From: Citricoccus zhacaiensis
GTDB taxonomy: Bacteria; Actinomycetota; Actinomycetes; Actinomycetales; Micrococcaceae
Length of the DNA: 64,000 nucleotides
NCBI RefSeq assembly: GCF_014645315.1
Contig: NZ_BMLQ01000009.1
Span: forward strand, 1-64,000
Reading direction: 5' to 3'
The first letter of the stretch is position 1; every line of letters starts with the position of its first letter. Shown here piece after piece: positions 10,458 through 54,072 of this stretch. Both the position numbers and the translations under genes were made by a program. A model generated the notes under the pieces. It saw only the letters and a list, made by a program, of their open reading frames with translations, did no database searches and was not told where the DNA came from.

Positions 10458-10552
10458 TCACTTTTGTCCCTTTGGCCTCAGCCTTAACACAGAGTTCACT
10501 CCGTGGTTGGCGCTGATGACAAGCCAGAAGTTGATGACAGGCCAATACAAGA

Positions 10553-10599
10553 CAAAGGGACACCGAGTCACCCTCAGGGGTGGACCCGGTGTCCCTTTG
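10553..10599 (-). terminator. intrinsic terminator of the nrdHIEF operon
   Basis: A 13-base perfect inverted repeat (CAAAGGGACACCG at 10553-10565 and its complement at 10587-10599), with a further CACCC/GGGTG pairing inside the loop. It begins 41 bases after the nrdF stop and is followed on the minus strand by a T-rich run (TTTGTCTTGT). It should stop nrd transcription before the amidase promoter. Confidence 0.8.
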
Positions 10600-10639
10600 C
10601 GCGCCGTCGGTGGACGGCTGTCAGAGCTCTCCGCTGACC

Positions 10640-11668
<1,029 letters not shown>

Positions 11669-32142: not shown

Positions 32143-32207
32143 ACCTCCCACGCTACCGGCAGTCTCCCGTCCGAGCGTCCTGGTCGCCGGCCAACCGTCG
32201 TGAGGCC

Positions 32208-38648: not shown

Positions 38649-38674
38649 GGTTGCTCCTCGGGGATGGGCGGAAC

Positions 38675-39748: not shown

Positions 39749-39815
39749 CGTTGACTCCTTGTTCGGATGGATCGCCGAACACGACTTTGCCAACGGGGGT
39801 GACGCGGCTCTACAG

Positions 39816-39836
39816 AGATCTCAGTCAGTGAGATCT
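39816..39836. promoter_or_regulatory. inverted repeat before the ABC-dehydratase operon
   Basis: AGATCTCA-GTCAG-TGAGATCT is a perfect 8-base inverted repeat with a five-base spacer. It lies in the 110-base gap between the IclR gene and the binding-protein gene, 68 bases before the latter's start. It is a good candidate operator for the neighbouring IclR protein. Confidence 0.5.
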
Positions 39837-39858
39837 GAGTCACAGCACGAGACGAAAA

Positions 39859-40650
39859 CTACCGGTTCATCTGGACGTTCAGTGCCATTGACCTCGTGAT
39901 GGCCAAGGCGGTCGTCTGAACGGCATGCGCCATGGTCTGTTCCTTCAGGCTCCCCAGGGGCGTGTTGACGGACAGGGCCGCGATGACCTGGCCATGGGTG
40001 TCACGGATCGGCGCCGCCACCGAGATGGCGTCCATGACGACCTGACGGTCACTGACGGCGAAGCCCCGTGACCTGATCGAGGCCAGCATCCGCCGCAGTT
40101 CCTGGGGACTGGTGACAGTCAAGGGCGTCCGCTGCTCCAGGCGGCCCGACAGGTAGTCCTCCTGAGTCTCCACGGGTGCGTGGGCCAGCAGCATCAATCC
40201 CACTGAGGTCAGATGCAGCGGATAATGGCTTCCGATGTAGGGGCGGGAGTTCCGCGCACGCCAATGTGACATCCGTTCGATGAAGACGGCTTGCGACCCC
40301 TCCCGCACTGCCAGGTGGACCGGGTGACCGGTGATGTCCATGAGGTCCTGCATGAACGGCAGTGCCGCCTGCTGCACCCCGCCGGACCGCGGCGCATGGG
40401 CAGCCACCTCCCACAGCCACAGGCCCACGTGATAGCGGTGCCCCTCGCCGATCTCCAGCACTCCCTCCTCGGCCAGGGAGCGCATGATCCGGTGGCAGGT
40501 GGAGGCCGGCAGCCCCGTCCGACGGCTGACCTCGGTGGCGGTCAGTTCCTCCGCGCCCCGCTCGAAGGCTCGGAGGATGGACGCCATCCTGGACAGCATG
40601 CTTCGTTGATCCTCGCCAGCCAGGGCTCCTCCTCCTCGTGTGCCTCTCAT
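39859..40650 (-). CDS. IclR-family transcriptional regulator
   Basis: A 263-residue IclR protein. The winged helix is in the first 70 residues (LTATEVSRRTGLPASTCHRIMRSL). The effector domain carries RPYIGSHYPLHLTSVGLMLLAH, RSRGFAVSDRQVVMDAISVAAPI and VIAALSVNTPLG. It precedes the ABC-dehydratase operon in the same orientation and probably senses its substrate. It starts 57 bases after the mftD stop, so read-through from the mft operon could reach it. Confidence 0.87.
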   Translation of the reverse strand: MRGTRGGGALAGEDQRSMLSRMASILRAFERGAEELTATEVSRRTGLPASTCHRIMRSLAEEGVLEIGEGHRYHVGLWLWEVAAHAPRSGGVQQAALPFMQDLMDITGHPVHLAVREGSQAVFIERMSHWRARNSRPYIGSHYPLHLTSVGLMLLAHAPVETQEDYLSGRLEQRTPLTVTSPQELRRMLASIRSRGFAVSDRQVVMDAISVAAPIRDTHGQVIAALSVNTPLGSLKEQTMAHAVQTTALAITRSMALNVQMNR

Positions 40651-40707
40651 CACACGATAGTCGCCGAGGCGGATGGCCAGCGCCCAGGGTGGGGGCAGAT
40701 CAGGAGG

Positions 40708-41988
40708 TCAGAAGCTCAGGGGTGGGCGGGTGGCTGGACCCAGCCCTCCGGCGGCCCCTTCGATGGCGGAGGAGCCGAGGGCCGGAGCACCCCAGACGTG
40801 GCCCTCGTCGCCTCCGGCGGTGATGGCGAATCCCGGCGGAATGAGCAGGTCCTGGGCGGAGATCTCGGACAGGGTCGCATGGCCGTTGCCCATCATGGCG
40901 GCCTTCAGGCCGTCCTTCATGATGTCCAGGACGTTCTCCACTCCGGCCTGCCCGTTGGCGCTCATGCCCCACAAGTAGGCCCGGCCGATCAGCACACCGC
41001 GGGCCCCCAGTGCCAGGGCCTTGTAGACGTGGGAGCCGCGGCGGATGCCGCCGTCGAGGTACACCTCGACGTCGTGACCGATGGCCTCCGCGACGGCGGG
41101 CAGCAGGCGGATGGTGGCCGGCGTCGTATCGAGGTTGTTGCCGCCGTGGTTGGACACGGAGACAGCGGTGACGCCAGCGTCCCGGGCGGCCTTGGCGTCG
41201 TCCACCCGGGTGATGCCCTTGACCATGAACGGCCCGTCCCACTGGCGGCGCAGCCAGGCGATGTCCTCCCAGGTCGGGATCTCGGTCTGGCGCCACCAGC
41301 CCATGGCCTCGAAGAACCCCGGTGCGGGCTCGCCCTTCGGCACGGCGTTCGGCACGGAGAGCTCCGGCGGACGCAATGTCCTGGCCCAGTCCAGGGCGTA
41401 GCCGAACTTGCCGCCCCGGATGATCTCCGGGGCGTACTTGAGGATGGCCTTGAGGTTCATCTCCTGCGGGATCTCCGGGCTGCCCCAGTCCCGGCCGTAG
41501 CCGTTCGTCCAGTCGAGGGTGATGATCAGGCCTGCCGCCCCGGCGTCCTTGGCACGCTGTGCGAGCGCCAGCATCTGGTCACGGCCTCCCGACCAGTACA
41601 GCTGGAAGAAGGTCCGGCCGGGGTTCTCCGGGATGACATCCTCCATGGCCTTGGAGGAGTATGCCCCGAGCCCCATGGCCGCGCCCCGGTTGTTCGCCGC
41701 CCGGGCGACCGCGATCTCACCGTCGGGATGAACGGCCTGGACCCCGGTGGGAGAGATCATCACCGGCGACTCGACGGGCACACCCATGATGGTGGTCCTG
41801 GTGTCCTGTGCGAGCGGGTTCCCAGTGATCTTTGGCGCGAAGCCGAGCTCGGCGAAGGCGTCGATGTTGTTCTGCACGGTCATGCCGCGCTCCGAACCGG
41901 CCACCAGGGCCATGTACACGGACGCCGGCAGGCGCTTCTTCGCGCGGCGCTGGGCCTCTGCCACGCTTTCGAACCACGGATTGGTCAT
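40708..41988 (-). CDS. mftD: pre-mycofactocin synthase MftD (FMN-dependent, lactate dehydrogenase-like)
   Basis: A 426-residue FMN enzyme of the alpha-hydroxy-acid oxidase fold. Visible features are SPTGVQAVHPDGEIAVARAA, MGLGAYSSKAMEDV, GPFMVKGI with the flavin Lys, VSNHGGNNLDTTPATI with the catalytic His, and VYLDGGIRRGSHVYKALALGA, the phosphate-binding region. It oxidatively deaminates the AHDP intermediate to pre-mycofactocin. Here it is the last gene of the mftABC operon, separated from mftC by three SDRs and a MoxR/VWA pair. In mycobacteria it follows mftC directly. Confidence 0.92.
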   Translation of the reverse strand: MTNPWFESVAEAQRRAKKRLPASVYMALVAGSERGMTVQNNIDAFAELGFAPKITGNPLAQDTRTTIMGVPVESPVMISPTGVQAVHPDGEIAVARAANNRGAAMGLGAYSSKAMEDVIPENPGRTFFQLYWSGGRDQMLALAQRAKDAGAAGLIITLDWTNGYGRDWGSPEIPQEMNLKAILKYAPEIIRGGKFGYALDWARTLRPPELSVPNAVPKGEPAPGFFEAMGWWRQTEIPTWEDIAWLRRQWDGPFMVKGITRVDDAKAARDAGVTAVSVSNHGGNNLDTTPATIRLLPAVAEAIGHDVEVYLDGGIRRGSHVYKALALGARGVLIGRAYLWGMSANGQAGVENVLDIMKDGLKAAMMGNGHATLSEISAQDLLIPPGFAITAGGDEGHVWGAPALGSSAIEGAAGGLGPATRPPLSF

Positions 41989-42043
41989 GGTGATGCCGTC
42001 CTCACTGTTGGATGTCGTTGGTCGTTGTTGATCAGGGTGAATC

Positions 42044-42991
42044 TCATGGGCTCAGGATCCTGGACAGTGCCCGCGGCAGGTCCCGGAAGGTGCGCACGGT
42101 CTCCAGCCGTCCGCGCCCGAGCCGGGCCAGGTCGCGCCCCAGGTCCACGTCCTTCTCCCCCGAGGTGTCGAGGAGGACGTCCAGCCGAGGCAGGCTGGCG
42201 GCCGCAGCGCGCGGGTCCGGTCCGGCGTTGTGCACGCAGTCGGACAGCAGCAGCACACGGCCCTCGGCCGCGGGGGCCCTGGCCAGTTCGTCGCGCGCCA
42301 GGCGCAGCGGATGCTCCACATTGGTCAGCCCGCGTGCCGGGATGCGCACGAGCGTCTCGAGGATCCCGCCCGGAGTGCCAACCTGGCCCATCGGTACGAT
42401 GCGGGCGGCATCGGACCAGAACGCGATCACGGCCAGATCGTCCCGGGCGAACTCCCCCACGATCGCGCCCACGGCAGCAGCGGCCGAGCGGACTCTCTCC
42501 CCGCGCATCGAGCCGGAGACATCGAGGAGGAGCACCATCGCCCGGCGTTGCCGGATGCGCTCGCGCACCACGATGTCCGAGGGCTCCGGGACCGGCCTGG
42601 CCACCAGGTTCTCGACCGTCGCCTCCAGGTCGATGTCCTCGGCACTGCCACGGAAGGGAAGTTGCTCCAGGTCGCCCAGCCCGCGCCGCGCCGTGGCCCG
42701 CCGCGGCGGCTGGGGAATCGCCAACGCCAGGGCGATCTCCCGTGCCCGGCGCAGCACCTCCCCGTCGGCGTGCTCGTCCAGGTCCTCCAGGTCGATGACC
42801 TGACTGTCCTCGCCGGTCTCCCCCGGCGCAGCTGTTCCCCTGACCCGAGCGGCGGTGGCGTCCTTGCCGGCTCCGCTGGCCGTCAACACCTGCCCTCCAC
42901 CCTCGCCGGTCGCCGGCTCGAAGACCGTCGGGGCCTCCTCGAGCACCTTCGGCCTGCGACGCCGGCCCGGCGCCTTCTGCGACCGGCGCAC
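42044..42991 (-). CDS. VWA-domain protein paired with the MoxR ATPase
   Basis: A 315-residue protein. The first 130 residues are basic, then acidic and low in predicted structure. A von Willebrand A domain begins with LLLDVSGSMRGE, whose DxSxS metal site is intact, and ends with the strand RLDVLLDTSGE. VWA proteins encoded next to MoxR-type ATPases insert cofactors into, or activate, partner enzymes. It starts at GTG 42991 in the same frame as the upstream ATPase, separated by its TGA and nine codons, without a clear Shine-Dalgarno. The likely client is an MFT-dependent or MFT-making enzyme, by context only. Confidence 0.8.
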   Translation of the reverse strand: MRRSQKAPGRRRRPKVLEEAPTVFEPATGEGGGQVLTASGAGKDATAARVRGTAAPGETGEDSQVIDLEDLDEHADGEVLRRAREIALALAIPQPPRRATARRGLGDLEQLPFRGSAEDIDLEATVENLVARPVPEPSDIVVRERIRQRRAMVLLLDVSGSMRGERVRSAAAAVGAIVGEFARDDLAVIAFWSDAARIVPMGQVGTPGGILETLVRIPARGLTNVEHPLRLARDELARAPAAEGRVLLLSDCVHNAGPDPRAAAASLPRLDVLLDTSGEKDVDLGRDLARLGRGRLETVRTFRDLPRALSRILSP

Positions 42992-43018
42992 GATCGGAGC
43001 GTCGTCCTCGATCTGCTT

Positions 43019-44008
43019 TCAACCCGGCTCCGCCGCTGCAGGTCTCAGGATGAAATGGTCCTCCCAGATCTCCCGCAGCACGCGCTCGGGCGTGGTCCCC
43101 GCCGCCTCGTCCACGTGGATCCGCCCCGAGAGGGAGACCATGGCCGCATCCAGGATGACGTCGGCATAACGGCGCCGCAGGGTGTTCTCTGCGCCCACCC
43201 GGCCTTCGCCCGGAGTATCGAGGCCGTGCAGGTTCAGCAGTTGGGCGGCCACCAGTGCCAGGTCGATGGCGCCTCGCACCGAACTGCCCTGGCGGGTGTC
43301 CTCATGCTCCCGGGTGGCCCGGGTCAGGGCGACGGCGTCCGTGACCAGCGCGGAGGCGAGCCGCGCTGGGACATCTTGGCCGCCGTCGGGCCCCAGGCCG
43401 GTGCGCAGCGCCACGATCTGATGCTCCGCCGCGGCGTCCTGATACCCGAGGACGAGGCGGTTGAAGCGGTCATGCACCGAGGTGGACAGGCGGGTGGTCC
43501 CGACGTTGTCATAGGGATTCATCGATCCGATGATGCGGAACGTCGGCTGGGCCGTGATGGTTCCGATCCGCGGGATCGTGACCTGCCGCTCCGCCATGGC
43601 CGTCAGCAGCGTGTTGAGCGTGTCATCCGGCGCACGGTTGAACTCCTCGATGTAGAGGAAGCCGCCCTCGCGCATGGCCCGCACGAGTGGGCCGTCCACG
43701 AAGTTCTCATCCCGGTATCCCTCCCGCAGGACACGGGCGGGATCATGCCCTCCGAGGAGCTTCGACGGGGTCAGGTCCGCATTGCCCTCGACCAGGACGA
43801 AGGCGATGCCCCACTCCTCGGCGATGGCCCGCAGGATCGTGGACTTGGACGTCCCCGGGGGGCCCTCGAGCAGGATGTCCCGCCCAGCCGCCACCGCGGC
43901 GAGGACCAGGTCGAGTTCGCGTTCGCGGCCGACGACGCGGTGGCCGAGGCTCTCGCGGACGCGGGTCACGTGACTGCTGTCCCGCAGGCCCGTTGACTGG
44001 ATGCTCAT
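43019..44008 (-). CDS. MoxR-type AAA+ ATPase in the mycofactocin operon
   Basis: A 329-residue AAA+ protein. Walker A is LEGPPGTSKST, Walker B LYIEEFNRA, sensor 1 Asn in IIGSMNPYD and the arginine-finger region SVHDRFNRLVLGY. MoxR ATPases act with VWA proteins as chaperones for metal or cofactor insertion, as with CoxD/CoxE and NorQ/NorD. ATG 44008 follows AGGACGAGC and lies eight bases after the SDR stop, so it belongs to the mft operon. No CO dehydrogenase, NO reductase or chelatase genes are in the window. Confidence 0.87.
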   Translation of the reverse strand: MSIQSTGLRDSSHVTRVRESLGHRVVGRERELDLVLAAVAAGRDILLEGPPGTSKSTILRAIAEEWGIAFVLVEGNADLTPSKLLGGHDPARVLREGYRDENFVDGPLVRAMREGGFLYIEEFNRAPDDTLNTLLTAMAERQVTIPRIGTITAQPTFRIIGSMNPYDNVGTTRLSTSVHDRFNRLVLGYQDAAAEHQIVALRTGLGPDGGQDVPARLASALVTDAVALTRATREHEDTRQGSSVRGAIDLALVAAQLLNLHGLDTPGEGRVGAENTLRRRYADVILDAAMVSLSGRIHVDEAAGTTPERVLREIWEDHFILRPAAAEPG

Positions 44009-44015
44009 GCTCGTC

Positions 44016-44858
44016 CTACTGGATCGCCGCGCCTCCGTCGACCGGAATCTGGCCGCCGGAAACGTAGTACGACTCATCGGATGCGAGCCACAGGACTGCG
44101 TTGGACACGTGGATGGGCTCGATCCACGCCTTCCCGAAGGGATTCAGCCCGGCGAATGCAGCTTCGGCGTCAGACGCTGTCGGTTCGTCCAGGTCCGGCC
44201 GGAAGAGCCGGTACGCACTCTTGTTCTTGACCATGGGCGTGTCAATCGAATTCGGATGGATGGTGTTGACGCGAATACCGTGTGGACCCAGCTCGTTCGC
44301 GAGCACCTTCATCAGACCGACAATGCCGTGCTTCGCGGTGGTATACGCGGCGACGTTCGCCAGTCCCTTGAATCCGGCAAGAGAGGAGATGATGATGACC
44401 GACCCACCCTTGCCGGCCTTGATCAGGTGCTCGGCAGCCGCGGCGTAGGTGTGCCAAACGCCAGTGAGATTGATGTCCTGGATGTCGTTCCACGTCGTCT
44501 CGCTGACCTCATGCGTGTTTGCCCCGAAGGTGAAGATCCCCGCATTGGCGACGATGATATTGACGGCACCGAGTTCGGCCACGCCATCGTTGACGGCCGA
44601 CTTCAGTGCGTCGAGATCCCGCACGTCTGCAACGCGAGTCACCACTCGACGGTCCAGCGCCTCCACTTGACGCGCGGTCTCCTGCAGCTCGTCCTCTCCC
44701 GGCAGTTCGTAGAAGCCTTCAAGGCTGTCCACCGGTGCGCAGAGGTCGACTGCGATGATGTCCGCGCCCTCCTCCGCCAGCCGGATTGCGTGGCTCCGGC
44801 CCTGCCCTCGTGCGGCCCCGGTGATGAAGGCGACCTTGCCTTTCAGACGTCCTGTCAT
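44016..44858 (-). CDS. mycofactocin-coupled SDR oxidoreductase, copy 1
   Basis: A 280-residue short-chain dehydrogenase. The nicotinamide motif is ITGAARGQGRSHAIRLAEEGAD. The MFT-type insertion lies between strand two and three (LCAPVDSLEGFYELPGEDEL). The catalytic Ser is in IIISSLAG, with YTTAKHG as YxxxK. MFT-coupled SDRs hold NAD(P) tightly and hand electrons to mycofactocin. It is the most divergent of three tandem copies and has lower GC in places (one 60-base line at 44221 is 50%). It is 66 bases after copy 2 and precedes the MoxR gene. Confidence 0.87.
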   Translation of the reverse strand: MTGRLKGKVAFITGAARGQGRSHAIRLAEEGADIIAVDLCAPVDSLEGFYELPGEDELQETARQVEALDRRVVTRVADVRDLDALKSAVNDGVAELGAVNIIVANAGIFTFGANTHEVSETTWNDIQDINLTGVWHTYAAAAEHLIKAGKGGSVIIISSLAGFKGLANVAAYTTAKHGIVGLMKVLANELGPHGIRVNTIHPNSIDTPMVKNKSAYRLFRPDLDEPTASDAEAAFAGLNPFGKAWIEPIHVSNAVLWLASDESYYVSGGQIPVDGGAAIQ

Positions 44859-44924
44859 GATGTGTGGCTCCTGTGTCGTGATGCGGTGATGGTGTCGAGA
44901 GCGATAAAAGGTCAGGCGGCGGGC

Positions 44925-45773
44925 TCAGAAGACGACGGACTTGAGGCCGGCGCCGGCGTCGACGGGCAGCGGTACGCCGGTGATGTATCTGCCCTCGTCC
45001 GAGGAGAGGAAGAGGACGGCGTTGGAGATGTCCACGGGCTCGACCCACGGGATGGGCAGGGAGTTCATGGATTGGGAGGTTGCGGCGAAATCCTCGTCGG
45101 TGGGGTTCTCCAGGTCGGGGCGGAAGAGCTTCTTCGTGGCCTCGTTCATGATCATGGGGGTGTCCACCTGCGTCGGGTGGATGGAGTTCACGCGGATGCT
45201 GTGCGGGGCCAGCTCGAGGGCGAGCGTCCGCATCAGGCCGACCACGCCGTGCTTGGCCGAGACATAGTGGGCGATGTTGCCCATGCCCTTGAGGCCGGCC
45301 AGGGAACTGGTGAGGACGATCGAGCCGCCGTTGCCACCGGCCTTGATGTGCGGGATCGCGGCCTTGGCCGTGTGCCACACCCCCGTGAGGTTGATGTCGA
45401 TCATCGTCTGCCAGCCGCCTTCCGACATGACGTCTGCTTCGGCCATCTCGCCAGAGATCCCGGCATTGGCCGAGACGATGTCGATACGGCCGAACTCGGC
45501 GAAGCCCTCGTCGGCCACGGCTTTGATGGCGTCGAAGTCACGGACGTCGGCTTGGCGGGCGATGATGCGCCGGTCCAGGGCCTCAACCTGACGGACTGTC
45601 TCCGCCAGGTCCTCTGCGGTGGGGCCTGCGTAGGGAACGTGTTCGACATCCTGGCAGATGTCGAACGTGATGATGTCGGCGCCTTCCTCCGCGAGCCGGA
45701 CGGCATGGCTTCTGCCCTGCCCCCGTGCTCCTCCGGAGATGAACGCGACCTTGCCTTCGAGACGTGCACCCAT
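44925..45773 (-). CDS. mycofactocin-coupled SDR oxidoreductase, copy 2
   Basis: A 282-residue SDR close to copy 3. It has the motif SGGARGQGRSHAVRLAEEGAD, and the MFT-type insertion begins FDICQDVEHVPYAGPTAEDL. The catalytic Ser is in VLTSSLAG and YVSAKHG gives YxxxK. ATG 45773 is chosen because the first residues (MGARLEGKVAF) equal those of copy 3. An in-frame TTG six bases earlier is unlikely. The carveol-dehydrogenase branch of this family oxidises terpenoid or aliphatic secondary alcohols; the actual substrate is unknown. Confidence 0.88.
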   Translation of the reverse strand: MGARLEGKVAFISGGARGQGRSHAVRLAEEGADIITFDICQDVEHVPYAGPTAEDLAETVRQVEALDRRIIARQADVRDFDAIKAVADEGFAEFGRIDIVSANAGISGEMAEADVMSEGGWQTMIDINLTGVWHTAKAAIPHIKAGGNGGSIVLTSSLAGLKGMGNIAHYVSAKHGVVGLMRTLALELAPHSIRVNSIHPTQVDTPMIMNEATKKLFRPDLENPTDEDFAATSQSMNSLPIPWVEPVDISNAVLFLSSDEGRYITGVPLPVDAGAGLKSVVF

Positions 45774-45776
45774 GAT
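45653..45776. repeat. 124-base near-identical repeat, copy in SDR 2 (second copy 46508-46631)
   Basis: The 124 bases covering the first 41 codons of SDR 2 match those of SDR 3 at 46508-46631 with a single difference (C/A, about 43 bases in). The remainder of the two genes has diverged clearly. The repeats are direct and 855 bases apart, suggesting recent gene conversion or a young duplication with selection on the rest. Confidence 0.85.
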
Positions 45777-45791
45777 CAATATCCCTTCTGC

Positions 45792-46628
45792 TTAGAGGCT
45801 CGTCTGGCCGGCGTCGACCTTGAGCTGCTGACCGGTGATGTAGCGGGCCTCGTCGGAGGCGAGGAATAGCAGCGCGTTCGAGATGTCCCGGGCCTCGACC
45901 CAGTCGATGTCCAGCGCCTGCATCGTCCGGGAGACCTCTGCGAAGTCCTCCCGGGTGGGATTGTCCTTGCCGGGGACGAACAGTTTGTAGATCGCCTCGT
46001 TCTGGATCATGTCCGTGTCCACCTGCGTGGGGTGGATGGTGTTGACACGGATGTTCTCCTGGCCCAGCTCAAGTACCAAGGTCTTCATGAGTCCCACCAC
46101 GCCGTGCTTCGCGGCAACGTAGTGGGTCATGTTCGCGTAGCCCTTGATGCCGGCCGTCGAGCTGGTGAGGACGATCGCACCACCGTTGCCACCGGTCCGG
46201 AGGTGCGGAAGGGCGGCTTTCACCGTGTGGCGGACACCGGTGAGGTTGATGTCGATCATCTCCTGCCAGCCCTCTTCGGACTGGTCAGCCAGGGGATTGA
46301 TCTCGCCCAGGATGCCGGCATTGGCCGAGACGATGTCGAGTCGCCCGAACTCGGCAAAGCCCTCGTCTGCAACGGCCTTGACTGCCGCGAAGTCGCGGAC
46401 GTCGGCCTCACGGGCGATGATGCGGCGGTCCAGGGCTTCCACCTGGCGGACCGTCTCCGCCAGGTCCTCGGCACGCGGACCGGGATAGGGATTCGACTTC
46501 ACGTCCCGGCAGATGTCGAACGTGATGATGTCGGCGCCTTCCTCCGCGAGACGGACGGCATGGCTTCTGCCCTGCCCCCGTGCTCCTCCGGAGATGAACG
46601 CGACCTTGCCTTCGAGACGTGCACCCAT
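45792..46628 (-). CDS. mycofactocin-coupled SDR oxidoreductase, copy 3
   Basis: A 278-residue SDR, first of the three tandem copies. The motif SGGARGQGRSHAVRL is followed by FDICRDVKSNPYPGPRAEDL (MFT insertion). Catalytic Ser is in VLTSSTAG and YVAAKHG carries Tyr and Lys. It lies 105 bases after mftC. The C-terminal substrate-lid region differs most from copy 2 (DNPTREDFAEVSRTMQALD), so the two probably accept different alcohols. Confidence 0.88.
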   Translation of the reverse strand: MGARLEGKVAFISGGARGQGRSHAVRLAEEGADIITFDICRDVKSNPYPGPRAEDLAETVRQVEALDRRIIAREADVRDFAAVKAVADEGFAEFGRLDIVSANAGILGEINPLADQSEEGWQEMIDINLTGVRHTVKAALPHLRTGGNGGAIVLTSSTAGIKGYANMTHYVAAKHGVVGLMKTLVLELGQENIRVNTIHPTQVDTDMIQNEAIYKLFVPGKDNPTREDFAEVSRTMQALDIDWVEARDISNALLFLASDEARYITGQQLKVDAGQTSL

Positions 46629-46733
46629 GATGTGACTCCTTGTTCAGATTGCTGTTCTGATTGCCGTGGGGGTGGCTTGACGGTGGATGGAGGTGGATGT
46701 GGTTCAGGGGGGTGATGGCGGAGGGGGATCTGG

Positions 46734-47993
46734 TCAGGACGATGAGGCCGTGGCGGCGCCAGGAGGCACGAATCCGGCCAGGGGGTCGATCTCGCAGGCG
46801 CTGACCGGTGGGCGGGCGGGTGCGCCCATGCCGATGCTCACCGGGACCGGGCGGGACTTCGCGCGCGGGCGGGGCGGTGAGGTCCGGTGGGACCGGTCAA
46901 CACTCGGCCGCGGGAACTCCAGGTCCGCCTCGCGTCCCTGGAGGAGTTCCTCGCCGAGACCACGCACGCATTCGGGGTCCGGTCCGTCGAGCGGCAGGCC
47001 GGTGAAGAACTTCGCGGCCATGCAGCCGCCGCGGCAGGTGTCCATGAACTGACACCCGGCGCAGGCGCCACCCGTCTGCGGCTCGCGCAGCTCGGTGAAC
47101 AGCTCGGCACCCCGCCAGACCGCAGCGAAACCGCCGTCGGTCACCGTGTTGCCGGCCTTGAACTCATCGTGGATCGCGAAGGGACAGGCATAGACATCGC
47201 CCACCGGGTCGATCAGGCACACCACCCGCCCGGCACCGCAGAGGTTCAGCCCGGGCAGGGTCTGCCCATAGGCGGAGAGGTGGAAGAACGAGTCACCGGT
47301 CAGCACGCCCTCCCCGTGGGCCACGAGCCAGTCGTAGAGCTCGCGCTGCTGCTCGGGACGCGGGTGGATGTCATCCCAGACATCCACCGCCCGCCCGGAG
47401 GGCCGCAACCGGGTGATGCGCAGCGTGGCACCGTACTCGTCCGCCAGGGCCTTGAACTCATCGAGCTGTGGGATGTTGTGCCGGGTCATGACCACGGAGA
47501 TCTTGAACCCCTCGACGCCGGCATCCTTCAGGTTCTGCATCGCCCGGACCGCAAGGTCGAAGGAGCCCTTGCCCCGCAGGGCGTCGTTGACCTCCGCGGT
47601 AGCCCCATCGAGGGAGATCTGCACGTCGATGTAACCGTTGTCGGCAATCCGCTGCGCGGCCTCCGGCGTGATACGCACCCCGTTCGTGGAGAACTTCACA
47701 CCGACGTCGTGGCTGGTGGCATACTCGACGATCTCCCAGAAGTCAGAGCGGACGGTCGGCTCACCACCGCCGATATTGACGTAGAAGACCTGCATCCGCT
47801 GGAGCTCGTCAATGATCTCCTTGCACTGCTCCGTGGACAGCTCGTTCGGATCGCGGCGGCCGGAGGCCGAGAGGCAGTGCGAACAACTGAGGTTGCAGGC
47901 GTAGGTCAGCTCCCAGGTCAGGCAGATCGGCGAATCGAGACCGCGTTCGAAGTGGTCGATGAGGGAAGGACGGCGCTCGGGCGCGAGGGTCAA
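46734..47993 (-). CDS. mftC: mycofactocin radical SAM maturase MftC
   Basis: A 419-residue radical SAM enzyme. The cluster motif is CNLSCSHC (C33, C37, C40), followed by NIGGGEPTVR and KFSTNGVRI. A C-terminal SPASM domain carries two auxiliary clusters (GAGRVVCLIDPVGDVYACPF, CAGCQFMDTCRGGC). MftC decarboxylates the C-terminal Tyr of MftA and cross-links it to the penultimate Val. I place the start at TTG 47993, with GGAG six bases before it and 16 bases after the mftB stop. The N-terminus then matches relatives (PSLIDHFERGLDSPICLTWE). The last 65 residues are a Pro/Arg-rich tail beyond the usual end. Confidence 0.93.
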   Translation of the reverse strand: MTLAPERRPSLIDHFERGLDSPICLTWELTYACNLSCSHCLSASGRRDPNELSTEQCKEIIDELQRMQVFYVNIGGGEPTVRSDFWEIVEYATSHDVGVKFSTNGVRITPEAAQRIADNGYIDVQISLDGATAEVNDALRGKGSFDLAVRAMQNLKDAGVEGFKISVVMTRHNIPQLDEFKALADEYGATLRITRLRPSGRAVDVWDDIHPRPEQQRELYDWLVAHGEGVLTGDSFFHLSAYGQTLPGLNLCGAGRVVCLIDPVGDVYACPFAIHDEFKAGNTVTDGGFAAVWRGAELFTELREPQTGGACAGCQFMDTCRGGCMAAKFFTGLPLDGPDPECVRGLGEELLQGREADLEFPRPSVDRSHRTSPPRPRAKSRPVPVSIGMGAPARPPVSACEIDPLAGFVPPGAATASSS

Positions 47994-48009
47994 GGCAAAC
48001 TCCAGGGGT

Positions 48010-48348
48010 TCAGGCGTGGTCGGTGGACGGCAGCAGCATGTCCGTGTCGGCGAGCCGTTGCAGGGCGGACACGTAGCCCGGACGGGCATCCTCGGCGATC
48101 CCCAGGGCAGCGAACGTCGCATCCACGCTCGGGAAGTCGGCCAGTGCGGTGACCAGATCGACGAGCCGGGTGTCCTTGAGGAAGCTGAGGCGGCGGGTGC
48201 CGAAGTGGTAGAGCAGGGCCCCGAAGGGCTCAGGCCGCACCGCCACGCGGGGATTCAGGGTCCAGGCCGTCCCGGGATCGAGGACGAGCCCCGATCCCGG
48301 ATCCACAGCCCGGTGTGTGGTGGTGGCCAAGGTCAGTAGACCCCGCAC
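48010..48348 (-). CDS. mftB: mycofactocin peptide chaperone MftB (RRE domain)
   Basis: A protein of up to 112 residues with the MftB pattern WTLNPRVAVRPEPFGALLYHFGTRRLSFLKD. This is a PqqD-like RiPP recognition element that binds the MftA leader and presents it to MftC. The GTG at 48348 overlaps the last 16 bases of mftA; internal GTG/TTG starts would give a product nearer the usual 90-100 residues. It ends 16 bases before the mftC start. Confidence 0.9.
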   Translation of the reverse strand: MRGLLTLATTTHRAVDPGSGLVLDPGTAWTLNPRVAVRPEPFGALLYHFGTRRLSFLKDTRLVDLVTALADFPSVDATFAALGIAEDARPGYVSALQRLADTDMLLPSTDHA

Positions 48349-48434
48349 ATGCCGTCGATCGAGACATCCTCGACGAGGTCGTCCGCCGTGACTTCGGGGT
48401 CAGTGCTCTGGGCGTGGGCGCTGGACTGATCCAT
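48333..48434 (-). CDS. mftA: mycofactocin precursor peptide MftA
   Basis: A 33-residue peptide too short for ordinary gene callers, ending in IDGMCGVY before TGA. The C-terminal Val-Tyr is the part converted to the redox cofactor, and IDGMCGVY is the diagnostic MftA ending. The N-terminal leader is acidic (STDPEVTADDLVEDVS) and is read by MftB. ATG 48434 follows GGAGG closely. A promoter and inverted repeat lie directly upstream, shared with the divergent mftR. Confidence 0.95.
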   Translation of the reverse strand: MDQSSAHAQSTDPEVTADDLVEDVSIDGMCGVY

Positions 48435-48462
48435 AGTTCCTCCGTGGAAAGTGCCGTGAATG

Positions 48463-48482
48463 TGTGAGTTGGATCACTCACA
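48463..48482. promoter_or_regulatory. candidate MftR operator between mftA and mftR
   Basis: TGTGAGT-TGGATC-ACTCACA is a perfect seven-base inverted repeat with a six-base spacer. It lies 29 bases before the mftA start and just downstream of the proposed -10 box, where a bound TetR protein would block transcription. A TetR-family regulator gene starts 88 bases away on the other side. Confidence 0.55.
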
Positions 48483-48489
48483 TGATGGG

Positions 48490-48518
48490 AGACTAAATGA
48501 CACTGGGTGCCAATGCAA
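48490..48518 (-). promoter_or_regulatory. candidate promoter of the mftA operon
   Basis: On the minus strand TTGCAT (48518-48513) and TAGTCT (48495-48490) are 17 bases apart, resembling sigma70-type boxes. Transcription would start about 48483, at the edge of the inverted repeat. Confidence 0.45.
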
Positions 48519-48570
48519 TGGATCGTGCACAACGTGGTGAACAATCTTTCTAGAGGTGAGAGGAGGGGCC

Positions 48571-49302
48571 ATGACCGAGAACCAGGAGACGCCTGACCGG
48601 ACCCTGGGCCGTCCCCGTGCCACCACGCATGACGTACTGGCCGAGATCGGCGTGGAGCTCTTCACCCGCCACGGGTATGAGCACGTCTCGGTCCAGCAGA
48701 TCGCCGATGCGGCGGGAGTGTCCCGACGGACGTTCTTCCGCTACTTCCCGACGAAGGCGGACCTGCCCTGGGGGGACTTCGCCCGGGAGGTGGAACGGCT
48801 CCGCGGAGAACTGGCCCTCGTACCGGATGACATCCCCCTGATGGCCGCCGTGCGCCATGCCGTCGTGGAATTCAACCGCGTCCCGCCGGAGGCCGTCGAC
48901 CAGCACCGTGCCCGGCTCGGACTCATCCTCACGGAACCCGAGTTGATCGCCCGGTCCCTGTTGAAATTCCGCGACTGGCGGCAAGTCATCGCGGAGTTCA
49001 CGGCTCGGCGCCTCAATCTGGATCCCACATCCTTCTTCCCCGAGCTGGTCGGTGAGGTCGCCTTGAGCGCGGCCGTCGCCGCCTATCGGCAGTGGATCCC
49101 CTCACTCGACACCGACCTCTCGACCTTCATCGACACCGCCTTCGCCGCAATCGTGGACCTGGACCGGCTGGAGCAGGGCGTCGCCGCTCAGCTGTCGATG
49201 CGACTGGACACCCGGGGGCGGGACCACAGGAGAATCACGGGCACCGCGACGATCCAGGAAATGCAGGAATCGCAGGAGGAGAACGCCGATGAGACTCGCT
49301 GA
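48571..49302 (+). CDS. mftR: mycofactocin system TetR-family regulator MftR
   Basis: A 243-residue TetR protein. The DNA-binding helix-turn-helix is HVSVQQIADAAGVSRRTFFRYF, the form typical of MftR. The C-terminal ligand domain is longer than usual, with a Glu/Gln-rich tail. MftR in mycobacteria represses mft genes and is released by long-chain acyl-CoA. ATG 48571 follows GAGGAGG. It is divergent from mftA, unlike the mycobacterial order, and its last 14 bases overlap mftE, so it is cotranscribed with the peptidase gene. Confidence 0.85.
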   Translation: MTENQETPDRTLGRPRATTHDVLAEIGVELFTRHGYEHVSVQQIADAAGVSRRTFFRYFPTKADLPWGDFAREVERLRGELALVPDDIPLMAAVRHAVVEFNRVPPEAVDQHRARLGLILTEPELIARSLLKFRDWRQVIAEFTARRLNLDPTSFFPELVGEVALSAAVAAYRQWIPSLDTDLSTFIDTAFAAIVDLDRLEQGVAAQLSMRLDTRGRDHRRITGTATIQEMQESQEENADETR

Positions 49303-49975
49303 CGCCACCTGGCCGGACATCCGACCGCAGACCTTCGGCGGCGCGGCCCCGGTGCTCGTGCTCCCGGTCGGGGCGTTGGAGCAGCACGGTCCGCACCTCC
49401 CCCTGGACACGGATGCCGTCACCGCCACGGCGGTGGCCACCGCCGTGGCAGACGCCAGACCTCGTGCCGCCCTCGCCCCGACCCTCCCGATCGGTGCCAG
49501 CGGGGAACATGCCGACTTCCCCGGCACGCTGTCCATCGGCAGTGACGCCCTGCGTCAGCTCATCGTCGAGGTGGTTCGCAGCTCCACCCCGACGTTCTCA
49601 GCGGTCATGGTGGTGAACGGACATGGCGGCAATGTGGATGCCCTCCGGTCCGCAGCCGAACTGTGCACGGCCGAAGGACGGACACTCCTCGCCCACCACC
49701 TCGGCCTGCCGGGCATGGACGCCCATGCCGGCCGGACGGAGACCTCGCTGATGCTGCACCTGACCCCGGAGCGGGTGCGGCTGGATCACGCGGAGCCCGG
49801 CAACACCACTCCCGTGCGAGAGCTCCTCGCCGAGATGAAGGCGCACGGGGTGCGGGGCGTCAGTCCGAACGGCGTGCTCGGCGATCCGACCGGGGCCAGC
49901 GCCACCGAGGGAGCGGAGCTGTTCGCCCGGCTCCGCGACCGGGCCATCGCAGCGTTCGACGGCATCCCGGGTTAG
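49289..49975 (+). CDS. mftE: mycofactocin precursor peptidase MftE (creatininase family)
   Basis: A 228-residue creatininase-like metallopeptidase. The metal ligands are in GALEQHGPHLPLDTDAVTA (Glu, His, Asp) and GEHADFPGTLSIG, then VVNGHGGNVDALRSAA and HAGRTETSLMLHL. It cuts the modified MftA peptide to release the cyclised Val-Tyr unit AHDP. It overlaps mftR by 14 bases and converges with mftF, with 38 bases between. Confidence 0.9.
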   Translation: MRLADATWPDIRPQTFGGAAPVLVLPVGALEQHGPHLPLDTDAVTATAVATAVADARPRAALAPTLPIGASGEHADFPGTLSIGSDALRQLIVEVVRSSTPTFSAVMVVNGHGGNVDALRSAAELCTAEGRTLLAHHLGLPGMDAHAGRTETSLMLHLTPERVRLDHAEPGNTTPVRELLAEMKAHGVRGVSPNGVLGDPTGASATEGAELFARLRDRAIAAFDGIPG

Positions 49976-50013
49976 ACGACAGAGCGCAGCAGAAACAGCA
50001 GAGGCGGCGGAAC

Positions 50014-51543
50014 CTATGCCCCGCTCTGGCGCAGCCGCGGCCGCAGCACCGCCCACCGCCGGGACCGCACCGCGGCACGGAGCACGCCGGTACCGTAGGC
50101 CGCGTCCGCGACGAGTCGCAGCGCAAGGTGCCGGGCGGGATCGAGGGCTGCGCCGGCGTCGTGCGCTGGGCCGTCATGGCTGAGGCGGTCCTGAACCCAG
50201 TGCCGGGCAGCCTGCACGGTGTCCGGCACCGTGGGAGCCAGGGCCAGCACGACGACGGCGCGCGCCACCCGCCTCGCCCGGCTCACCGGAGCCGCGCACA
50301 CCATGGACACCGCGAGGGCCAGCGCCCCGAGCGGCCACCATTCGCGACGCAGGGCGTTGCCGACGGCGGTGACCTCGGACCGCAGTCCGAGCACGGCGAC
50401 CTCGGCGCCGCCGGACACGGGCAGACCCCGACGGTGGAAGCGGCGGACGCTGGCGCCGAGCTGGACCGCTGACCCGCCCACGGCACCCGCAACACCCAGG
50501 GCGCGCACCGGTCCGCGACCACCCACTGCCACCAGGCTTCCAGCGAGCACCGCCAGGCCGGGCCACCCCCAGGTCGCTGGAGCGAGCCGGCCAGGGTGCC
50601 GGTCCTCGAGCGGGACGGCCGAGGTTCCATAGGCCGTATGCCGCTGGCACCATCCCGCCAGCCCAGCGCGGACCTCATGATGGACCTCGGCGGAGGGCAC
50701 ATACCGGACGGTGTGTCCGGCGGCGACGAGGCGCCAGATGAGGTCGACGTCCTCCCCCACCCTCAGCCCGGGTTCGAAGGGCGGATCCGGCAGGGCCGCG
50801 CGACGCACGAGCAGGGCAGCGGTGGGGACGTAGCCGATCTGCCCCCCCGGGGCGACGCGCCGTGCCTGGGGCCCGAGGTCGAGTCCGCCGCGCCGGGACT
50901 CGAACCGTTCCAGGACGGTGCCGGGGCCGGCACCGGTCACGGAGCCCCGGACCCGGGGAGCTGCGACGGCCACTGTCGGGTCGTCGACGTGAGGAAACAG
51001 GACGTCCAACCAGTACTCGGTGGGCACGGTGTCCGCGTCCAGGAACGCGACGAAGTCGGCCGGTCCCTCGGCTGAATCGGTCGACGCGGCCAGGCCGGCG
51101 TTGCGGGCGCCGCCGGGTCCGACGTTCTCGGGCAGGACCACCAGACGCACGCCGTGGGCTGCGCAGACCCGTTCGATCTCCCGGGCATCGGTGGCGCTCG
51201 AGGCATCATCCACCACGGTCACCCGATGGCCGTGCACGGCCGGGAGGAGACGCGTCAGGGGCACGGCCGAACCGTGGACCGGCACGATCACCTCCACCTC
51301 GTCCGGACGGGGCCGCCGGGGCGGGTGGACGGGCAGGGCCAGACCTCGGTCCACGAGCAGTCGTGCGGTGGCGCGTTCCACGTCGTCGACCGGCTCGACG
51401 GCCCCGGCGCCGCGGCGCAGGACCTTCCTGGCAAAGGGACGGGCCGGAGCGGACAGCCGGGCCAGTCCCCACGGCGATCCGCCGAACACCAGTTCGCCGT
51501 GGCGGCGGGTGTAGGAGCCCTGGGTCCGGGCGATGGCCGTCAT
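50014..51543 (-). CDS. mftF: mycofactocin glycosyltransferase MftF
   Basis: A 509-residue GT2-family glycosyltransferase. After about 80 residues containing the MftF-specific SWGLARL-like segment, the GT-A domain shows VEVIVPVHG, VTVVDDASS, ENVGPGGARNAGL, FLDADTVP (DxD) and RVGEDVDLIWRLVAAGH. The C-terminal third has several hydrophobic stretches, so it is likely membrane-bound. MftF adds beta-1,4-glucose units to premycofactocin. Its ATG overlaps the mftG stop (ATGA). Confidence 0.92.
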   Translation of the reverse strand: MTAIARTQGSYTRRHGELVFGGSPWGLARLSAPARPFARKVLRRGAGAVEPVDDVERATARLLVDRGLALPVHPPRRPRPDEVEVIVPVHGSAVPLTRLLPAVHGHRVTVVDDASSATDAREIERVCAAHGVRLVVLPENVGPGGARNAGLAASTDSAEGPADFVAFLDADTVPTEYWLDVLFPHVDDPTVAVAAPRVRGSVTGAGPGTVLERFESRRGGLDLGPQARRVAPGGQIGYVPTAALLVRRAALPDPPFEPGLRVGEDVDLIWRLVAAGHTVRYVPSAEVHHEVRAGLAGWCQRHTAYGTSAVPLEDRHPGRLAPATWGWPGLAVLAGSLVAVGGRGPVRALGVAGAVGGSAVQLGASVRRFHRRGLPVSGGAEVAVLGLRSEVTAVGNALRREWWPLGALALAVSMVCAAPVSRARRVARAVVVLALAPTVPDTVQAARHWVQDRLSHDGPAHDAGAALDPARHLALRLVADAAYGTGVLRAAVRSRRWAVLRPRLRQSGA

Positions 51544-53168
51544 CGGCCCTCCCGGATCCGGGACCCGGCGAGGTGCCCCAGTGCCATGGCCACCGCGGCC
51601 GTCCCTCCAGAGGGGTGCGTGGGCAGGACGGAGAGGTCCGCCACGTGCAGCCCGTCGATGCCGCGCACCCGTAGCTGCTCATCCACGACGGCGTCCGGTC
51701 CGCCGGCCGCGCAAGTCCCCACGGCGTGGTAGATGCCGCCACCGGACGTGCGGACGAAGGCGGCGGCAGCCTCGTCATCACCGCCGGCGACGCTGACGCC
51801 CGGCAGCTCCTCGTCAATGACCACGCCCGAGAGCGCCGGTGCGGCGAGCGCGGCGCGGGCCGTCTTCAGGGCACGGGCGGCCGCGTCCCGGTCGCGGGGA
51901 TCCTCGAGCAGGGGCGCACGGACGTGCGGGGGCCGGCAAGGATCGGTGTTGGCCGCATGGACTGACCCCGTGGAGTACGGACTGAGGGCATAGGCCTGGA
52001 TCATCAGTCCGGCATGGTCCGCCGGTTCCAGGCCCGTGCCGTCCGTGGAGATGTCGGTGAGCAGAAGTTGCAGATCCGGCCGGTTCCCGCCGGTCGAGTC
52101 CACGGAGGCGGCGAGCGGGTAGGGGCCGGAGGCAAGCGGCCCCGACCGGGTCACGAGGTATTGAGCGGCGGCACCGAGCAGTCCTCGGGTGGTCCCGAGC
52201 CGGCCGTTGAGGCCCAGCCCGAAGCGGATCCGGGCCTTGACGGTGGCCCCGCGTTGTTCCCGGAGGCCCTCGCCCACCCGCGGCGCTGAGACGACGGGGT
52301 CGATGCCGAGGTGCCGCAACCGGTCCGGGTCTCCGATGCCCGAGCGCTCCAGGAGCGACGGCGTCTCCAACGTCCCCGCGGTGAGCACCACCTGACGTCG
52401 GGCGTGGTGACGAATGCGGCTGCCGTCTGCGAGGACAGTCTCCACGCCGACCGCACGGTCACCGGCGGTCAGCACCCGCACGGTCGTCTGCCCCGTGAGC
52501 ACCCTCAGGTTCCCTGCACGGAGCCCGGGTCGCAACAACGTGGCTGCACTCCGCCGCATTCCGCCTCGGATGGTGGCTGGGGTGCGTCCCACCCGAGGCC
52601 CGACGGCGGCGCGCACGTCCGGCACCAACGGCACCCCGGTCTCCCCGAGGCCGGCGATCAGGGCCCGCAGGACCTCGGACGGAGGTTCAGACGAGGGTTC
52701 GGACGGGGGCGCGGAGACGGGCAGTACGGCTTCCAGGTGATCGAAGGCGCGTCCGAAGGCAGGCCAGGACCAGTCCGCGCCGAGATGATCCGCCAGGCCG
52801 TCGTAGAGGTGCGACTCTCCGCGCAGGTACATGGTGCCATTGATGAGCGTGGAGCCGCCGACCCCGCGGCCCCGCCGCCACACGTCCACGGGGCCCGGTT
52901 CCCGTGCCGGGAGCGCCGGGTACTCGAGGCTGATCCGCGGGTCGAACATGGTCCGCACAAAGCCCTTCGGCACGGCCACCAGGGGGTTGCGGTTCCACGG
53001 GCCGGCTTCCACGACCAGCACCCGCAGGGACGGATCCTCAGCGAGGGCGGCAGCCATCGCACATCCGGCCGCACCGGCACCGACCACGATGACATCGGCG
53101 GTCAGTCCGCGCGCCGCCTCAGGCGGGTCAGGGGATCCAGCGCGAGAGCCGGCGGGACGTGGTGTCAT
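51540..53168 (-). CDS. mftG: mycofactocin dehydrogenase MftG (GMC oxidoreductase)
   Basis: A 542-residue GMC flavoprotein. FAD fold: VIVVGAGAAGCAMAAAL. GMC signature: GRGVGGSTLINGTMYLRG. The C-terminal active-site region is GGGIYHAVGTCAAGG with the His, then LHVADLSVLPTHPSGGT. MftG reoxidises mycofactocinol and passes electrons to the respiratory chain. I set the start at ATG 53168 (MTPRPAG), about 30 residues before the Rossmann fold; an upstream extension would overlap the AraC gene. It forms a coupled pair with mftF. Confidence 0.9.
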   Translation of the reverse strand: MTPRPAGSRAGSPDPPEAARGLTADVIVVGAGAAGCAMAAALAEDPSLRVLVVEAGPWNRNPLVAVPKGFVRTMFDPRISLEYPALPAREPGPVDVWRRGRGVGGSTLINGTMYLRGESHLYDGLADHLGADWSWPAFGRAFDHLEAVLPVSAPPSEPSSEPPSEVLRALIAGLGETGVPLVPDVRAAVGPRVGRTPATIRGGMRRSAATLLRPGLRAGNLRVLTGQTTVRVLTAGDRAVGVETVLADGSRIRHHARRQVVLTAGTLETPSLLERSGIGDPDRLRHLGIDPVVSAPRVGEGLREQRGATVKARIRFGLGLNGRLGTTRGLLGAAAQYLVTRSGPLASGPYPLAASVDSTGGNRPDLQLLLTDISTDGTGLEPADHAGLMIQAYALSPYSTGSVHAANTDPCRPPHVRAPLLEDPRDRDAAARALKTARAALAAPALSGVVIDEELPGVSVAGGDDEAAAAFVRTSGGGIYHAVGTCAAGGPDAVVDEQLRVRGIDGLHVADLSVLPTHPSGGTAAVAMALGHLAGSRIREGR

Positions 53169-53217
53169 AGTGCGTTCATCGTAGTCACGGGAGGGACTCA
53201 GGCCGTCACCGCCAACA

Positions 53218-54072
53218 TCAGGCCCTCTCGATAGGAATCCACAGTTGGCCGCTGCCGCTCGTTCCTCCCTCGTCCGATTGCACGGAGAGCAATTCGGGGC
53301 CCGGAGCCCATCGGTACGGATTGGCCGGGAACCACTCGGTCGCCGCATCGGCCCAGAGCTGTTGCAGTGCCTCAGGGAAGTCGCCTTCCGCTTGGAAGAC
53401 GACCCACAGACCAGCCGAGACGTCGAGCGATTCCAGGCCGGCCGGCGTCGGGCGCGTGGTGGCGACCGCGCGCCAATAATCCAGCCAGCTGCCCTCCGAG
53501 CGAGGTGCGTCGATGTTGACGGTGACGGCGAGGCTGCCGGCCGGTTCCTGATCCGAGAGCTCGGCCAGCTGCGTCCGGATGGTGGGGTCTATAGAACGTT
53601 CGAAGTCGGCGATGGCGGCGTTCTCCCCCTCGTGGATGAGCGGGACGCGGGTATGGACTCCCACCAGGGTGAAGGCGGCCTTCTCGATGATGCGGTGCTT
53701 CACGTCTGTGGTCCCTTCGACGGTCAGATGGAATCTGAGTTGCGGTTGAGAATGGAGGACGGCGCCGGGACGACGTGCCTCGGTCGGTGTCATGCCGTGC
53801 AGTGATTTGAAGGCCCGGTTGAACGCCTCGGCAGAGCCGTAGCCATAACGCACGGCCACGTCCAGCACCGTGGAGCCATCCAGGATCTCGGCGGTGGCCG
53901 CGGTGAGACGCCGGCGTCGGACGTACTCGGACAGCGGCATGCCGGCAAGGGTGGAGAACATCCGGCGGAAGTGATACTCCGAGGTCATGGCAGTCCTGGC
54001 CAGTGCCTGGACGTCGACGGCGGCCGTCAGATCCGCTTCGATGTCGCCGATGGCGCGATTCCATTGCTGCAT
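53218..54072 (-). CDS. AraC-family regulator with GyrI-like effector domain
   Basis: A 284-residue protein. The N-terminal third carries two AraC helix-turn-helix motifs (YHFRRMFSTLAGMPLSEYVRRRR and YGYGSAEAFNRAFKSLHGMTP). The rest is a GyrI-like small-molecule domain, as in Rob and SoxS-like transcription activators that bind hydrophobic ligands. It lies 49 bases upstream of mftG on the same strand with no evident terminator, so it could control or be cotranscribed with mftG-mftF. Confidence 0.85.
   Translation of the reverse strand: MQQWNRAIGDIEADLTAAVDVQALARTAMTSEYHFRRMFSTLAGMPLSEYVRRRRLTAATAEILDGSTVLDVAVRYGYGSAEAFNRAFKSLHGMTPTEARRPGAVLHSQPQLRFHLTVEGTTDVKHRIIEKAAFTLVGVHTRVPLIHEGENAAIADFERSIDPTIRTQLAELSDQEPAGSLAVTVNIDAPRSEGSWLDYWRAVATTRPTPAGLESLDVSAGLWVVFQAEGDFPEALQQLWADAATEWFPANPYRWAPGPELLSVQSDEGGTSGSGQLWIPIERA

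Follow-up and report, generated by a model that had tools for sequence, protein, structure and literature searches.

A MoxR/VWA pair tied to mycofactocin and placed beside its dehydrogenases in Citricoccus zhacaiensis and other bacteria

In the NorQ/NorD system, a MoxR-type AAA+ ATPase and a protein with a von Willebrand factor A (VWA) domain form a pair that activates its operon partner, nitric oxide reductase, in an ATP-driven manner, as described in the available part of the source (PMC9976466). The metal ion-dependent adhesion site (MIDAS) of the VWA protein probably holds the client in such pairs, according to the accessible portions of two papers (PMC9976466, PMC13036017). Among dehydrogenases tied to mycofactocin (MFT), the short-chain dehydrogenases/reductases (SDRs) of family TIGR03971 hold nicotinamide adenine dinucleotide (NAD) beneath an insertion loop, with no exchange detected by nuclear magnetic resonance (PMC5264612, available part), and the TIGR03989 zinc alcohol dehydrogenases (ADHs) form a parallel group (PMC3023750, available part). 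Here, we describe an MFT locus of Citricoccus zhacaiensis (contig NZ_BMLQ01000009.1) in which a MoxR/VWA pair and TIGR03971 SDRs lie together. Within the window, i.e., the whole stretch of 64,000 nucleotides analyzed, positions 40708-53348 hold mftA-F, mftR, three TIGR03971 SDR genes, the MoxR/VWA pair, and a glucose-methanol-choline (GMC) oxidoreductase gene (Table 1). From 48434 down to 40708, the minus strand reads mftA, mftB, mftC, the three SDRs, MoxR, VWA, and mftD. On balance, we favor the view that this is a cluster for MFT biosynthesis and use, of a kind shared by many Micrococcales, and that the MoxR/VWA pair probably belongs to the using side, where it would remodel MFT-coupled dehydrogenases.

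The MoxR/VWA pair and its co-occurrence with mycofactocin genes

The MoxR gene encodes an AAA_5 ATPase with the three motifs kept across the MoxR alignments, GPPGT(S/G)K, Y(I/V/L)EE, and MNP, which we take to be Walker A, Walker B, and sensor 1; the middle motif has E-E, not D-E. The adjacent VWA protein has an intact MIDAS (DxSxS-T-D, present as DVSGSM...GLTN...LLSDC), whose elements were kept in 24 of 24 aligned relatives, and an N-terminal motif, EAPTVFEP; its start codon is uncertain, and its gene lies 27 bp past the MoxR stop and 55 bp ahead of mftD. For MoxR, the start of the longest open reading frame (ORF), at 44077, is less likely than the ATG at 44008, immediately past SDR1. The best solved-structure matches of MoxR were midasin, then NorQ, an uncharacterized protein, and CbbQ, those to NorQ and CbbQ being distant in sequence (E 8e-14 to 4e-11). 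Neither protein passed any cut-off in the NCBIfam scan; MoxR scored 51.8 bits against the MadB ATPase model (cut-off 475), and our literature search found no paper treating MadB and mycofactocin together. A 345-aa ORF at 41985-43022 was considered as the VWA gene and rejected as a shadow frame over the true coding sequence, having no Pfam, NCBIfam, or solved-structure match, and would mislead length-based gene calling. MoxR and VWA occur in one open frame of approximately 604-642 aa in three loci (L072, 8990-10912; L085, ~9005-10909; L113, 9082-10896), with both AAA_5 and VWA_2 detected in the L072 frame, and these natural fusions imply that the two proteins probably act together. The MoxR family is also well separated, its members scoring approximately 260 bits or more and the other MoxRs encoded by the five genomes searched not exceeding 80.

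Co-occurrence was determined in a class sample of 296 genomes from 115 genera, including that of the window, of which 91 encoded mftC and 205 did not; VWA and MoxR were scored on the best seven first-look candidates per genome, hence some may be missed. VWA was found in 16 genomes (7 genera) and MoxR of the window's family in 17 (8 genera, 23 loci). Either member was present in 18 genomes, the window's among them, all of which were mftC-positive (18/91), and neither was found in the 205 mftC-negative genomes among the candidates scored (hypergeometric P 1.7e-10, kinship ignored). In a family sample of 100 genomes, MftD passed its cut-off in five and VWA occurred in three, again counting the window's, each time less than 70 bp upstream of an MftD above cut-off. 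The first-pass annotation of this DNA had suggested that the extra genes belong to MFT biology, and this is borne out by the restriction of MoxR/VWA to mftC-positive class genomes and by the identity of the SDRs as TIGR03971 members. The MoxR/VWA pair is a real mycofactocin trait. No such link was found in the literature searched, the coverage of which left out preprints and most subscription journals; in the available parts of PMC8191103 and PMC7105596 the words for both occur, but in separate places (tables or one line of a supplement).

With the VWA alignment as query, 64 further loci were retrieved from the contigs of GTDB genomes; they include close relatives and are not independent. Because they were retrieved through VWA, they are silent on the share of mft loci that have no pair. 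Their hosts are, by our assignment of families, presumably mostly Microbacteriaceae and Micrococcaceae, with Streptomyces, Kineosporia, Gordonia, and uncultured lineages among the rest. Of 50 genomes behind these loci that were checked for mftC, 44 were positive; the other six were four mftD-keeping drafts, discussed below, and two metagenome-assembled genomes (MAGs), one with mftA and mftE but no mftC found (L053) and one, named Mucilaginibacter, represented by a contig of 3.4 kb (L056). Of the 14 other loci, 13 carry mftC in the locus and one (L066) comes from the same assembly as L062. The order mftC-SDRn-MoxR-VWA, where n is one to six genes, was found in 38 of the 64 loci and continued to mftD, directly or after one SDR, in 31, and the full consensus, mftR (reversed) followed by A-B-C-SDRn-MoxR-VWA-(SDR)-D-E-F, was intact in 26. 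A reading of the window's arrangement as unique to this genome is rejected on these counts.

Neighboring dehydrogenases and the proposed role of the pair

For the neighbor tally, the window and a locus of the window's cluster type from one sampled genome of the same genus (L025) were added to the 64, giving 66 loci, 62 of which were evaluable for MoxR (three had no MoxR on the stretch and one lay at an edge). Genes were counted as adjacent when their tblastn matches lay no more than 450 bp apart, the largest SDR gap being 380 bp, and some ORFs for scanning were picked by a crude gene caller, with some wrong frames. A same-strand SDR lay directly upstream of MoxR in 55/62 loci. All 56 upstream SDRs scanned (52 of the 55, all but L029, L056, and L079, and four more of the class sample) matched TIGR03971 at E<=1e-89; L038 was left out of the SDR alignment. 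Directly after VWA, mftD was found in 34/65 loci, an SDR in 9/65 (with mftD next in seven of the nine), mftE in 7/65, and no queried gene within 450 bp in 15/65. The first-pass annotation had singled out co-occurrence of the pair with mftD as the tie to score. As the steadiest partner mftD was nevertheless rejected, even with its position at most two genes away in 41/65 loci, as the pair keeps to SDRs more than to mftD.

A second dehydrogenase fold appears in the class sample, where 20 of the 23 MoxR loci touch an MFT-type dehydrogenase: ten have an SDR upstream (the window's included), eight an ADH of the NDMA-dependent type directly upstream, and two an SDR convergent downstream. Upstream of the diverged MoxR/VWA pair, the ADH passed the TIGR03989 cut-off of 440 bits in G160 (locus L115, a 371-aa ORF, 521 bits) and in G234 (573 bits), and the other six of the eight were assigned by tblastn only (395-747 bits). 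A MoxR tree separated a side of eight rows (seven ADH-linked, one with neither neighbor) from a side of 74 holding every SDR-linked row, with SH-aLRT support of 100; the tree came from a quick search, gave long-branch warnings for several rows on the ADH side, and included seven of the eight ADH-linked rows. In G160, the ADH-MoxR-VWA trio is followed by a gene (L115, 7670-8530) that looks nitroreductase-like by eye, had no NCBIfam match at 1e-20, and recurs in L117 and L118. Judged from this genomic context, the adjoining dehydrogenases are likely to be the clients of MoxR/VWA.

SDRs use no catalytic metal, and because of this metal insertion cannot be the step common to both client folds. What the SDR and ADH neighbors share is not metal but tightly held NAD and MFT as the proposed acceptor, which led us to propose loading or reset of NAD. 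We suggest tentatively that the MoxR/VWA step concerns the bound NAD. More speculatively still, the pair could be a "nicotinoprotein activase" that pries MFT-dependent dehydrogenases open so that their buried NAD can be loaded, swapped, or reset, one MoxR clade being specialized for the SDR fold and another for the medium-chain dehydrogenase/reductase (MDR) fold of the zinc ADHs. In the reading that we favor, the MoxR ring with its VWA adaptor would remodel TIGR03971 SDRs here and TIGR03989 zinc ADHs in the sister clade, the MIDAS of VWA holding the client and ATP driving the remodeling. Opening the lid over the tightly held NAD would allow NAD to be loaded, or a cofactor stuck in a dead-end state to be reset, ahead of electron transfer to MFT. 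We know of no AAA+ system for pyridine-nucleotide loading.

Several observations weigh against a dehydrogenase-directed role. No pair was detected in 73/91 mftC-positive class genomes among the seven candidates scored in each, so MFT dehydrogenases can work without it, and in a genome of the same genus (G060, locus L027), where VWA was not found, the order is A-B-C-D-E-F with a true MftG. Mycobacterial TIGR03971 SDRs have been crystallized with NAD bound (PMC5264612, available part) and, as we read that work, this was done without a MoxR/VWA partner. Since most MFT genomes of the sample showed no pair and such NAD-bound structures exist, the pair would serve to assist or repair, and NAD loading would not strictly depend on it. 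An upstream SDR was absent from 7/62 loci (L038, L039, L072, L075, L081, L085, and L092), in one of which, L085, the upstream neighbor of MoxR is an MftD-like flavoenzyme of the LldD type, and 3/23 class MoxR loci adjoin neither an SDR nor an ADH, one having a pirin upstream. The MoxR tree with ordinary MoxRs as the outgroup was poor, with two outgroup rows at a branch length of 10 and the outgroup not on one side. The idea of one dedicated SDR ortholog in the slot next to MoxR was rejected, the adjacent SDRs not forming one clade and changing 29 times on the tree, a count that mistakenly scored the window SDRs as unlinked and the L038 SDR as adjacent and serves a broad statement only.

The alternative that survives best is that MoxR/VWA matures or regulates MftD and is hence part of biosynthesis, which we regard as unlikely. 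As mftD is the first or second gene downstream of VWA in 41/65 loci, position alone leaves room for such a role, to which the short VWA-mftD spacing in all three members of the family sample and the MftD-like neighbor in L085 also point. Against it, the remaining 24/65 loci have no mftD that close, and mftD is inverted in G302 and separated from mftC by approximately 14-16 kb in two genomes of Kineosporia (G137 and G139), yet SDR-MoxR-VWA stays together in these cases. ADH-linked pairs, moreover, have no mftD within the stretch seen, and the many mftC-positive genomes with no detected pair count against this alternative too.

Also improbable is that the pair acts on another MFT component (MftC, MftF, or the trafficking or presentation of the glycosylated cofactor) or inserts metal in the zinc-type dehydrogenases only. 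Known MoxR/VWA systems such as NorQD do insert metals, according to the available portions of the literature (PMC9976466, PMC13036017). However, the commonest neighbors of the pair are SDRs, which need none, mftC and mftF were never the direct upstream neighbor of MoxR in the 66 loci, and mft clusters exist without the pair. Least credible of all is a general stress chaperone carried as a passenger in a mobile SDR-rich operon with no MFT role: the variable SDR array indicates that the operon gains and loses genes, but the family was not found in mftC-negative class genomes among the candidates scored, is set off from ordinary MoxRs, splits into two MoxR clades with two client folds, and still adjoins SDRs when it lies on a contig other than that of mftC (G201, G233, and G414).

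How buried-NAD enzymes obtain NAD, or recover from a wrong or stuck cofactor state, can be put to the test with this well-separated family, which in the class sample was found in mycofactocin genomes alone and mostly beside such enzymes, in two folds. A dehydrogenase-directed role, if true, would extend MoxR/VWA chaperones beyond metal and rubisco clients, and for genome annotation the pair adds two mycofactocin-linked proteins, neither of which reaches an NCBIfam cut-off today.

Organization of the cluster and its variants

Table 1. Features of the mycofactocin locus in the window. Gene identity was judged by NCBIfam curated cut-offs and, for MoxR, VWA, and GMC, also by Pfam.
Feature	Product or remark	Coordinates	Strand	Model and score
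mftD	Pre-mycofactocin synthase	40708..41988	-	TIGR03966, 584 bits (cut-off 471)
VWA	MoxR partner, 315 aa	42044..42991	-	PF13519, 54.6 bits; PF05762 VWA_CoxE, 33 bits
MoxR	MoxR-type AAA+ ATPase	43019..44008	-	PF07728 AAA_5, 94 bits
SDR1	Mycofactocin-coupled SDR, directly upstream of MoxR	44016..44858	-	TIGR03971, 376 bits (cut-off 300)
SDR2	Mycofactocin-coupled SDR	44925..45779	-	TIGR03971, 410 bits (cut-off 300)
SDR3	Mycofactocin-coupled SDR	45792..46628	-	TIGR03971, 399 bits (cut-off 300)
mftC	Radical SAM maturase	46734..48122	-	TIGR03962, 634 bits (cut-off 265)
mftB	Chaperone	48010..48348	-	TIGR03967, 108.6 bits (cut-off 33)
mftA	33-aa precursor, C-terminal IDGMCGVY	48333..48434	-	TIGR03969, 50.1 bits (cut-off 25)
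mftR	TetR-type regulator, ATG at 48571	48556..49302	+	TIGR03968, 232.6 bits (cut-off 224.9)
mftE	Peptidase	49289..49975	+	TIGR03964, 277 bits (cut-off 172)
mftF	Glycosyltransferase	50014..51543	-	TIGR03965, 309.5 bits (cut-off 280)
GMC	GMC oxidoreductase coupled to mftF, start uncertain	51540..53348	-	PF00732/PF05199

As a biosynthesis locus, the window contains mftA with the IDGxCGVY ending, mftB, and mftC, with mftD, mftE, mftF, and mftR above their cut-offs. The true start of mftC is probably internal to the ORF, the domain spanning 46950-47957, and mftB likely starts at a TTG near 48330; MftD has a C-terminal extension of approximately 38 aa past the TIGR03966 model match. Two features read from the sequence at first pass stood when measured: mftD is displaced by 4.7 kb (mftC stop to mftD start), behind the three SDRs and MoxR/VWA, and mftR is divergent and coupled to mftE on the plus strand, the two overlapping by 14 bp in ORF coordinates. 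The same annotation had listed all seven core genes plus mftR, with mftG and mftF as a coupled unit. This holds for mftA-F and mftR, and for the coupling, as the GMC gene and mftF on the minus strand beyond mftE overlap by 4 bp (ORF coordinates); it fails for mftG, as the GMC protein scored below all three MftG models (TIGR03970, 173 bits against a cut-off of 387; TIGR04542, 108 against 400; NF038210, 46 against 300).

The GMC protein shares 29-30% identity with two MftGs scoring above their cut-off. Related proteins that likewise fail the MftG models are encoded in the same genus (L025, 1641-3257) and in a different genus of this family (L028, 250-1833, 49% identical), whereas the GMC proteins of L027, L044, L057, and L060 pass. 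In the window and in L025 this non-MftG gene is coupled to mftF, and in L028 it lies near the mft cluster. These proteins make up a GMC group distinct from MftG and a possible stand-in for it. What replaces MftG where it is missing is a question raised in the available part of PMC11778925, for which this gene is a concrete candidate.

Gene-order comparison across mft loci thus has two outcomes: the SDRn-MoxR-VWA-mftD arrangement is ordinary for its lineages, and the placement of mftE with mftR and of mftF with a non-MftG GMC gene, as separate units, is an unusual departure from the consensus in the window and L025. Given the A-B-C-D-E-F cluster in the same genus, whole cluster types may have been exchanged. 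Beside mftD, the flank at 31081-40653 holds a catabolic unit with a zinc dehydrogenase, an aconitase-X/cis-3-hydroxyproline dehydratase-like protein, an FAD oxidoreductase, an IlvD-type dehydratase, a sulfonate-type ABC transporter, and an IclR regulator adjoining mftD; an IclR gene follows mftD in L025, too. In the two Kineosporia genomes noted above, two neighboring mftD copies lie in opposite orientation, approximately 14-16 kb from mftC (G137, C23:325969-328463; G139, C19:4214-6614), and one copy in G139 has an internal stop. Cryobacterium sp. Y11 (G102, L031) has mftA and mftC but no mftE match in its genome, where another peptidase may take the mftE step.

SDR-MoxR-VWA and an MftD above cut-off were retained in four draft genomes, Cryobacterium sp. 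Y50 (L036), Leucobacter sp. wl10 (L042, L167), Homoserinimonas sp. OAct 916 (L057), and Leucobacter weissii (L060), in which no match to mftA, mftB, or mftC and no mftE above cut-off was found. In L057 and L060, mftR, mftD, mftF, and MftG pass their cut-offs, and mftR stands directly against the SDRs at the usual mftABC site. The order in L167 by tblastn is mftG and mftR reversed, then mftD, mftF, and an SDR forward, and the mftG match in L036 is in two pieces. The lost genes are the makers of 3-amino-5-[(4-hydroxyphenyl)methyl]-4,4-dimethyl-2-pyrrolidinone (AHDP), and the kept genes act on AHDP and use the product. That mftD acts on AHDP is reported in the available part of PMC11162802, and Herbiconiux sp. 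L3-i23 is described, in the available part of PMC11778925, as having mftD, mftF, mftG, and a possible mftA without mftB, mftC, or mftE. This pattern suggests that the four genomes take up AHDP or a later intermediate from neighbors, i.e., precursor salvage.

Comparison with described systems

Like NorQ/NorD, as far as the available sources describe it, the window encodes, within the presumed client's operon, adjacent MoxR and VWA proteins, the latter with an intact MIDAS. Unlike NorQ/NorD, its VWA protein is shorter, at 315 aa, the presumed clients are NAD-bound dehydrogenases, the Walker B motif has E-E, and midasin is a closer match than NorQ. The pair is neither NorQD nor CbbQO, the matches being distant only, and no nitric oxide reductase or rubisco gene was found among the cluster genes scanned. 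With the rubisco activase CbbQ/CbbO and CoxD/CoxE of CO dehydrogenase, to judge from the accessible parts of the literature, the proposed role would share MoxR/VWA remodeling of a finished enzyme, and the window VWA matches the CoxE model PF05762; client and genome context of the window pair differ from both.

All three window SDRs pass the cut-off of the carveol dehydrogenase-like, buried-NAD family TIGR03971, and unlike them, the mycobacterial members appear without mention of a MoxR/VWA partner in the available part of PMC5264612. The window also shares the core genes and the IDGMCGVY precursor with the mycobacterial mftABCDEFG cluster. Unlike that cluster, it places three SDRs and the MoxR/VWA pair between mftC and mftD, mftE with mftR, and mftF with a GMC gene other than mftG.

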